The notes under the pieces were generated by a model. The model was not told the origin of the DNA, made no database searches, and saw nothing but the letters and a program-made list of their open reading frames with translations. Below, in pieces: positions 1-36,073 of a DNA stretch of 36,073 bases. Source of the stretch: Thermoplasmata archaeon (GTDB taxonomy: Archaea > Thermoplasmatota > E2 > UBA202 > JdFR-43); the NCBI GenBank assembly GCA_021162815.1, contig JAGGXW010000038.1, positions 1 to 36,073 on the forward strand, written 5' to 3'. How positions within the stretch are numbered: position 1 is the stretch's first letter; the number at the start of each line of letters is the position of its first letter. Made by a program: the position numbers and the translations under genes.

Positions 1-177
1 GGAGTATTTGGAGGATTGGAAAACAGGAGATTATTATTCACAAGATACAGGAAAAAATCAATGAGAATGAAACATATAATTGCCATGGCAATTGTTCATA
101 ATATAAACACTTACATGGCAATTTCCTTATTCATTCTGATTTATTCGACAAACCCTCCCGTGACAGAAAATTTTTAA
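1..177 (+). mobile_element. 3' end of an insertion sequence: C-terminal fragment of a DDE-type transposase, with the right terminal inverted repeat at about 144-155
   Basis: Open frame from base 1: GVFGGLENRRLLFTRYRKKSMRMKHIIAMAIVHNINTYMAISLFILIYSTNPPVTENF*. The GGLENR...RYRKK...MAIVHNI pattern resembles DDE transposase C-termini. TTCGACAAACCC (144-155) is the exact reverse complement of GGGTTTGTCGAA at 35934-35945. Confidence 0.7.
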
Positions 178-1495: not shown

Positions 1496-1609
1496 GAGTT
1501 TATCGAAAAAATGATGAAATTTAAATTTCCGTCCCTGCGGGGATATAGAGGAAGGAAATTTAAATATCCCGAACTTTTTTCATATCCATTTATTTTTTCA
1601 TTGACAAGC
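1496..1609 (+). repeat. Degenerate solo copy of the IS 5' end, possibly a MITE
   Basis: GAGTTTATCGAAAAAATGATGAAATTTAAATTTCC...GGGGATATAG aligns with the IS start at 35934 (GGGTTTGTCGAAAAAATGATGAAATTTAAATTCCC...GGGGATATAG), about 11 differences in ~62 nt. 12-bp inverted repeat ATTTAAATTTCC (1519-1530)/GGAAATTTAAAT (1554-1565). Possible degenerate right end TTTTTTCATTGACAAGC ending at 1609. Confidence 0.6.
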
Positions 1610-35933: not shown

Positions 35934-36073
35934 GGGTTTGTCGAAAAAATGATGAAATTTAAATTCCCATCCCCATGGGGATATAGGGGATGGGAATGAG
36001 ATATTGGAAGAGATACGACAGAAAATATAAAATGTGGAATATAAAAAAGATTTACTATTTTATTCAATCAAAA
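35934..36073 (+). mobile_element. 5' end of an insertion sequence: left terminal repeat, leader hairpin and transposase N-terminus (truncated by the window end)
   Basis: GGGTTTGTCGAA (35934-35945) is the reverse complement of the tip at 144-155. Nested palindromes at 35965-35996. ORF from ATG 35990 runs off the end: MGMRYWKRYDRKYKMWNIKKIYYFIQSK. Confidence 0.65.

Follow-up and report, generated by a model that had tools for sequence, protein, structure and literature searches.

A conserved hairpin at the transposase start of an archaeal insertion sequence may protect against read-through expression

What is a long inverted repeat doing directly at the start of a transposase gene? The question is raised by a stretch of 36,073 nucleotides (the window), which is contig C14 (one of 78) of an archaeal genome of 1.2 Mb and is cut at both ends inside copies of one insertion sequence (IS; positions 1–155 and 35934–36073). 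A sequence-only reading of this DNA had proposed pairing between two segments of the IS leader, and this pairing is borne out: 11-nt arms at 35964–35974 and 35986–35996 enclose an 11-nt loop and abut the transposase start. The relevant features, all on the plus strand, are as follows.

1–155, plus strand: right end of a second IS copy, with the transposase C-terminus and the right terminal inverted repeat (TIR, 138–155).
156–164, plus strand: TCCCGTGAC, 9-bp target duplication, the same as the left-end flank in contig C5 of this genome (G000).
1497–1566, plus strand: solo left-end remnant with a decayed hairpin and without transposase.
35934–35951, plus strand: left TIR GGGTTTGTCGAAAAAATG, matching right ends that finish in ...TTWTTCGACAAACCC and resembling the IS903B end GGCTTTGTTGAATAAATC.
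35958–35965, plus strand: TATA-like box TTTAAATT, the predicted native promoter; all copies carry TTTAAATT, TTTATATT, TTAATATT or TTAATGTT immediately 5' of the 5' arm.
35964–35974, plus strand: hairpin 5' arm TTCCCATCCCC; changes in intact copies are solely C to T (U-G wobble).
35975–35985, plus strand: loop ATGGGGATATA, 11 nt here, variable among copies in sequence, length (11–20) and orientation.
35983–35987, plus strand: predicted native transcription start region, +25 to +29 from the start of TTTAWA, the spacing at the host's own genes.
35986–35996, plus strand: hairpin 3' arm GGGGATGGGAA, which is also predicted to serve as the native mRNA's short 5' leader; its pairable part GGGGATGGGA is invariant in 20 leader variants.
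35996–36073, plus strand: transposase start ATG AGA TAT TGG (MRYW...), truncated by the contig end, with in-frame homology to the full-length copies G001:C96 and G059:C26.

The full-length transposase, read in G001:C96 and G059:C26, scores 34.9 bits against the DDE model PF01609, above the cut-off of 23. Its best NCBIfam model is IS5_2 (1.5e-16), but the score of 60.7 bits is below the 140-bit cut-off; the nearest named bacterial relatives are ISAae1 and ISTth7 (IS5-like). The TIR of ∼18 bp begins GG(C/G)TTTGT and is identical to the IS903B end at 16 of 18 positions (GGGTTTGTCGAATAAATC vs GGCTTTGTTGAATAAATC). TCCCGTGAC flanks the right junction in C14 and the left junction in C5, and CGTCATAAC the left junction in C23 and the right junction in C19; because both recur at opposite junctions, the target duplication of this IS is 9 bp, as in IS903. 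The duplications also let contigs C5 and C14, and C23 and C19, be joined. We call the element, from these sequence features, an IS5-family, IS903-like insertion sequence, a family placement on which the protein models are not conclusive. It differs from IS903 in that protein similarity is low and the IS903B leader lacks a conserved stem at the start. Related copies sit in Thermoplasmata MAGs, taken from their isolate names to come from hydrothermal sites; a search of viral contigs returned no relative.

The hairpin stands out from its surroundings. Perfect inverted repeats of at least 11 bp with a spacer of up to 30 occur at two sites in the 36-kb window, the leader and the solo copy (at 1519), and shuffling the 64-nt leader gave an 11-bp perfect repeat in 2 of 20,000 trials. 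The predicted energy of the long stem is −20.8 kcal/mol, and the leader RNA folds with a z-score of −4.9, a stability equalled by none of 200 shuffles. No known RNA family in Rfam was matched in the window. Inspection of the right IS end shows that the hairpin is absent there, and a role as a transposase-used part of the TIR was rejected for that reason. A terminator was likewise rejected: no T-run follows the stem on the sense strand, which is also the strand favored by the U-G pattern described below, and the outward T-run that the TIR offers on the other strand lies ∼20 nt away from the stem.

The earlier proposal had further parts. It put the putative transposase start at ATG 35990, a codon that in the G059, G013:C15, G006 and G005 copies lies in a different frame or is followed by a stop; the start conserved among the relatives is therefore ATG 35996. 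It also envisaged a switch between two exclusive hairpins. The inner palindrome ATCCCCATGGGGAT does exist, but at −5.0 vs −20.8 kcal/mol it is not confirmed as a true alternative to the long stem; it depends on the loop ATGGGGATATA, which is unique to this genome, and no loop in any other genome contains it. A conserved two-hairpin switch is therefore rejected, as the inner hairpin is weak and confined to one genome. As to covariation, the solo copy does carry one C-G to T-A change, but its stem has 2 of 10 pairs broken and one wobble, and a formal count finds a single pair changed on both sides, with a score reached by 94 of 500 shuffles; the change thus lends the pairing no support.

Copies within this genome are nearly identical and hence reveal little, and it is the comparison across genomes that carries the information. 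Among 390 genomes of the phylum, the pattern CCCATCCYC-N3-30-GGGGATGGGAA is confined to 11 (reversed control, 0), ten of which belong to one Thermoplasmata family and one to another; the sites listed are left ends of this IS. Three sets were compared: G001–G004, G007, G008, G010, G013 and G014; G006 together with G013:C15/C36; and G059, from the other family. Transposase identity is ∼57% for the second set and 57% for G059, and coding DNA is 66–71% identical between the groups. A TCCCATCC(C/T)C-like 5' arm and the 3' arm GGGGATGGGA are nonetheless kept throughout the three sets; in G059, 20 of 20 stem bases are identical and the loop is unalignable. The hairpin is thus real and conserved, and it is probably functional.

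What stands out, contrary to the covariation claim, is how fixed the letters of the arms are. Among the 20 leader variants, a set that leaves out the two decayed copies (solo and C8), the 3' arm shows no change, and the 5' arm is altered in six, each time by a C to T change that leaves a U-G pair on the sense strand. Because half of all transitions keep a pair, six of six would arise by chance about once in 64, a modest figure, and the one-sided pattern would also be expected if the 3' arm were fixed for some other reason. That the 3' arm is open to mutation follows from the decayed C8 and solo copies, which carry changes there. The intact copies contain no compensatory changes, so that the arms are conserved as sequence and not by pairing alone; at such divergence, compensatory change would be expected were pairing the sole constraint.

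Loops in other genomes (for example GTAGGAGGCACA, TGTTTCTCCTAC and ATTTCATAATTGAAAAAAGA) range from 11 to 20 nt. Related copies carry the loop in both orientations, as with GTAGGAGAAACA vs TGTTTCTCCTAC (G001:C48 vs G001:C96; G004:C75 vs G002:C44; G003:C9/C52/C67), so over short evolutionary times it flips between the arms. The variable length and the inversions indicate that the stem matters rather than the loop. Three G003 contigs (C9/C52/C67) terminate within the hairpin loop.

The most diverged copies (G005:C61/C6/C63, 42% transposase identity) have lost the 5' arm, and their hairpin is reduced to −4.0 kcal/mol; the hairpin is therefore not universal. They retain the 3' arm (GGGGATGGGAAA; AAGGGGATGGGAAA ahead of the ATG), which probably has a separate role as initiator or leader. 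A canonical Shine-Dalgarno sequence within this arm was considered and rejected, as host genes use GGAGGTGA-like motifs that GGGGATGGGA matches poorly.

In order to place the native transcription start, we used the host's own promoters, sampled as 124 promoter-proximal genes from 318 kb of its genome. Ahead of these genes, TATA-like hexamers are most frequent 30 to 21 nt from the ATG, with 35 hits in the 5-nt bin from −30 to −26 against ∼5 in each of the other bins; for the starts of TTTAWA the maximum is at −29 to −25, as leaderless transcription predicts. Applied to the TATA-like box of the IS, this spacing predicts that native transcription starts at approximately 35983–35987, on the border of the 3' arm. 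TATA box, arm and predicted start are arranged alike in all copies, with predicted leaders of 9–13 nt (∼20 in G059, whose loop is 20 nt). With the 5' arm downstream of the TATA box but upstream of the predicted start, a native mRNA would be unable to form the stem. The sequence-only reading had named a transcription start downstream of the hairpin as evidence against a regulatory leader; in part, and by prediction, this is where the TATA-like box puts it, which would limit the action of the hairpin to read-through RNA.

From these observations we infer that the hairpin protects against read-through expression of the transposase, in the manner of IS10, IS50 and IS200, a reading to which we assign a probability of roughly 0.55. 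The element's own promoter would be the TATA-like box at 35958–35965, with transcription beginning near 35983–35987, so that the native mRNA would start at or just 5' of the 3' arm, carry a leader of ∼9–12 nt and leave ATG 35996 accessible. Where the IS lies behind an active host gene, incoming transcripts would carry both arms and fold into a stem of 10–11 bp that hides the leader together with the first base of ATG 35996, and the read-through RNA would make no transposase. Read-through is a real exposure, because for approximately 10 of 25 copies a co-directional ORF is found no more than 100 bp upstream.

Folding predictions are consistent with such a block. According to sequence and predicted structure, the stem covers the translation start of the entering RNA in 21 of the 22 leaders examined. 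Across the 21 copies with a stem, the predicted stem energy at 37°C is −18 to −26 kcal/mol and at 70°C still −7 to −14 kcal/mol. The predicted probability that the 13 nt around the start are unpaired is 0.01–0.16 in read-through RNA and 0.63–0.98 in native RNA at 37°C, and 0.06–0.23 and 0.75–0.99, respectively, at 70°C. The start-sequestering leader first proposed thus survives in altered form: conservation, changes limited to one arm and to U-G pairs, and the predicted occlusion of the start all speak for it, and the two-hairpin switch falls away.

Leaders of this kind have bacterial precedents. In IS10 and IS50 (Tn10, Tn5), the leader occludes transposase translation in read-through RNA. As in those elements, the archaeal stem overlaps the transposase start region and external transcripts would fold; the TATA-like box and the spacing seen in the host predict that the transcript from the native promoter would be without the upstream arm. 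Action on read-through RNA alone is, by analogy, what the comparison with IS10/IS50 implies. Unlike them, the present element is archaeal, has a TATA-type promoter, an IS5-family transposase and arms of invariant sequence, and shows no sign of antisense RNA or Dam control. The stem-loops of Salmonella IS200 terminate transcripts that run into the element and mask the ribosome-binding site (summarized in PMC3196728), and there, too, a leader structure by the IS end acts against incoming transcription; IS200 differs in having no TIRs and another transposase, and the archaeal element in having one hairpin and no sense-strand U-tract after it. Predicted hairpins in the first 50 bp have been mentioned, as data not shown, for Amoebophilus IS elements that include the IS5 members ISCaa2 and ISCaa9 (PMC3196728). 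Like the hairpin described here, these are at the left end of IS5-family elements and were proposed to limit expression, although they are bacterial and cross-genome conservation was not shown there. In ISPpu9, mRNA structure over the ribosome-binding site of a 244-nt native 5'-UTR limits transposase translation, and two small RNAs are involved (PMC8450116); translation would be limited by mRNA structure here as well, but the archaeal native leader is predicted at ∼10 nt.

The archaeal case would thus be an addition to an already known kind of IS leader. It would extend bacterial IS self-restraint, in which external transcripts are ignored, to archaea that use TATA promoters and have very short leaders, and would suggest that IS elements arrive at such a solution wherever they insert behind active genes. 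The arrangement is compact, as native and read-through RNAs would differ by a single hairpin arm. A literature search for impinging transcription in archaeal IS elements, far from a full one, found no paper.

The main rival, which we consider unlikely, is that the arms act in DNA, as the half-sites of an operator between the TATA box and the start at which a repressor (a host protein or the transposase) blocks transcription. Arm letters that are invariant beyond what pairing demands would suit such a site, as would a location between TATA-like box and predicted start that fits an archaeal repressor and the survival of the 3' half-site alone in the G005 copies. A spacer that ranges from 11 to 20 bp and inverts is hard to reconcile with a rigid dimer site, however, and changes confined to one arm and exclusively C to T argue against it, as does a right end without such a site.

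Quite improbable is the original model, in which transcription from upstream of the 5' arm yields a native regulatory leader whose hairpin, possibly with a switch, represses all transposase translation. The hairpin would indeed occlude the start once transcribed, and the TIR contains another A-rich stretch (GTCGAAAAA) that might in principle act as a TATA box, but transcription from that stretch would start within or at the end of the 5' arm and not upstream of it. Use of the best TATA-like box would leave the 5' arm out of the transcript, and the inner hairpin that would compete is neither strong nor conserved.

The arms could also be a double-purpose site for one protein, the transposase or a host factor, used as an operator in DNA and as a translational operator in RNA. 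We give this little credence; it would explain why the arm letters are fixed while the spacer drifts in length and orientation and, if true, would make this an autoregulatory archaeal IS leader of an undescribed kind. Very improbable, lastly, is that the 3' arm alone matters (as initiator or ribosome-binding leader GGGGATGGGAA) and that the 5' arm arose as a by-product when the IS end was duplicated in inverted orientation and has persisted through recent shared ancestry: the G005 copies retain just the 3' arm and the fold-back and inverted-loop copies show the palindrome rearranging, but the 5' arm is identical across 57% transposase identity with unalignable loops, and its changes always preserve a U-G pair.

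Several exceptional copies are recorded here. In one copy (G000:C10, 10886–10963) the whole stem is gone and the reading frame is broken too. In the solo remnant (1497–1566), the 3' arm is followed not by the transposase but by ATTTAAAT, a mirror of its TATA box, and the remnant may, judging from this arrangement, have originated as a fold-back that then decayed, and not by simple deletion. Locus L072 (G002:C34:1–201) is a perfect 95-bp fold-back palindrome centered on the hairpin and includes flanking chromosome; it may be an artefact of assembly or amplification, or else a genuine snap-back inversion. The copies in four contigs of this genome (C5, C10, C28 and C76) share a 1-nt frameshift, one extra T ∼75 nt past the start (CTATTTTTATTC vs CTATTTTATTC), which may mean either that these copies are mobilized in trans or that the position is a recoding site. 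Finally, two regions of G011 (C72:3614 and C60:5443; L080 and L085) contain elements of ∼145 bp with ends GGGGTTGTCGA...TCGACAACCCC and target duplications of 8–9 bp, which from their sequence are apparently MITEs of a related IS.
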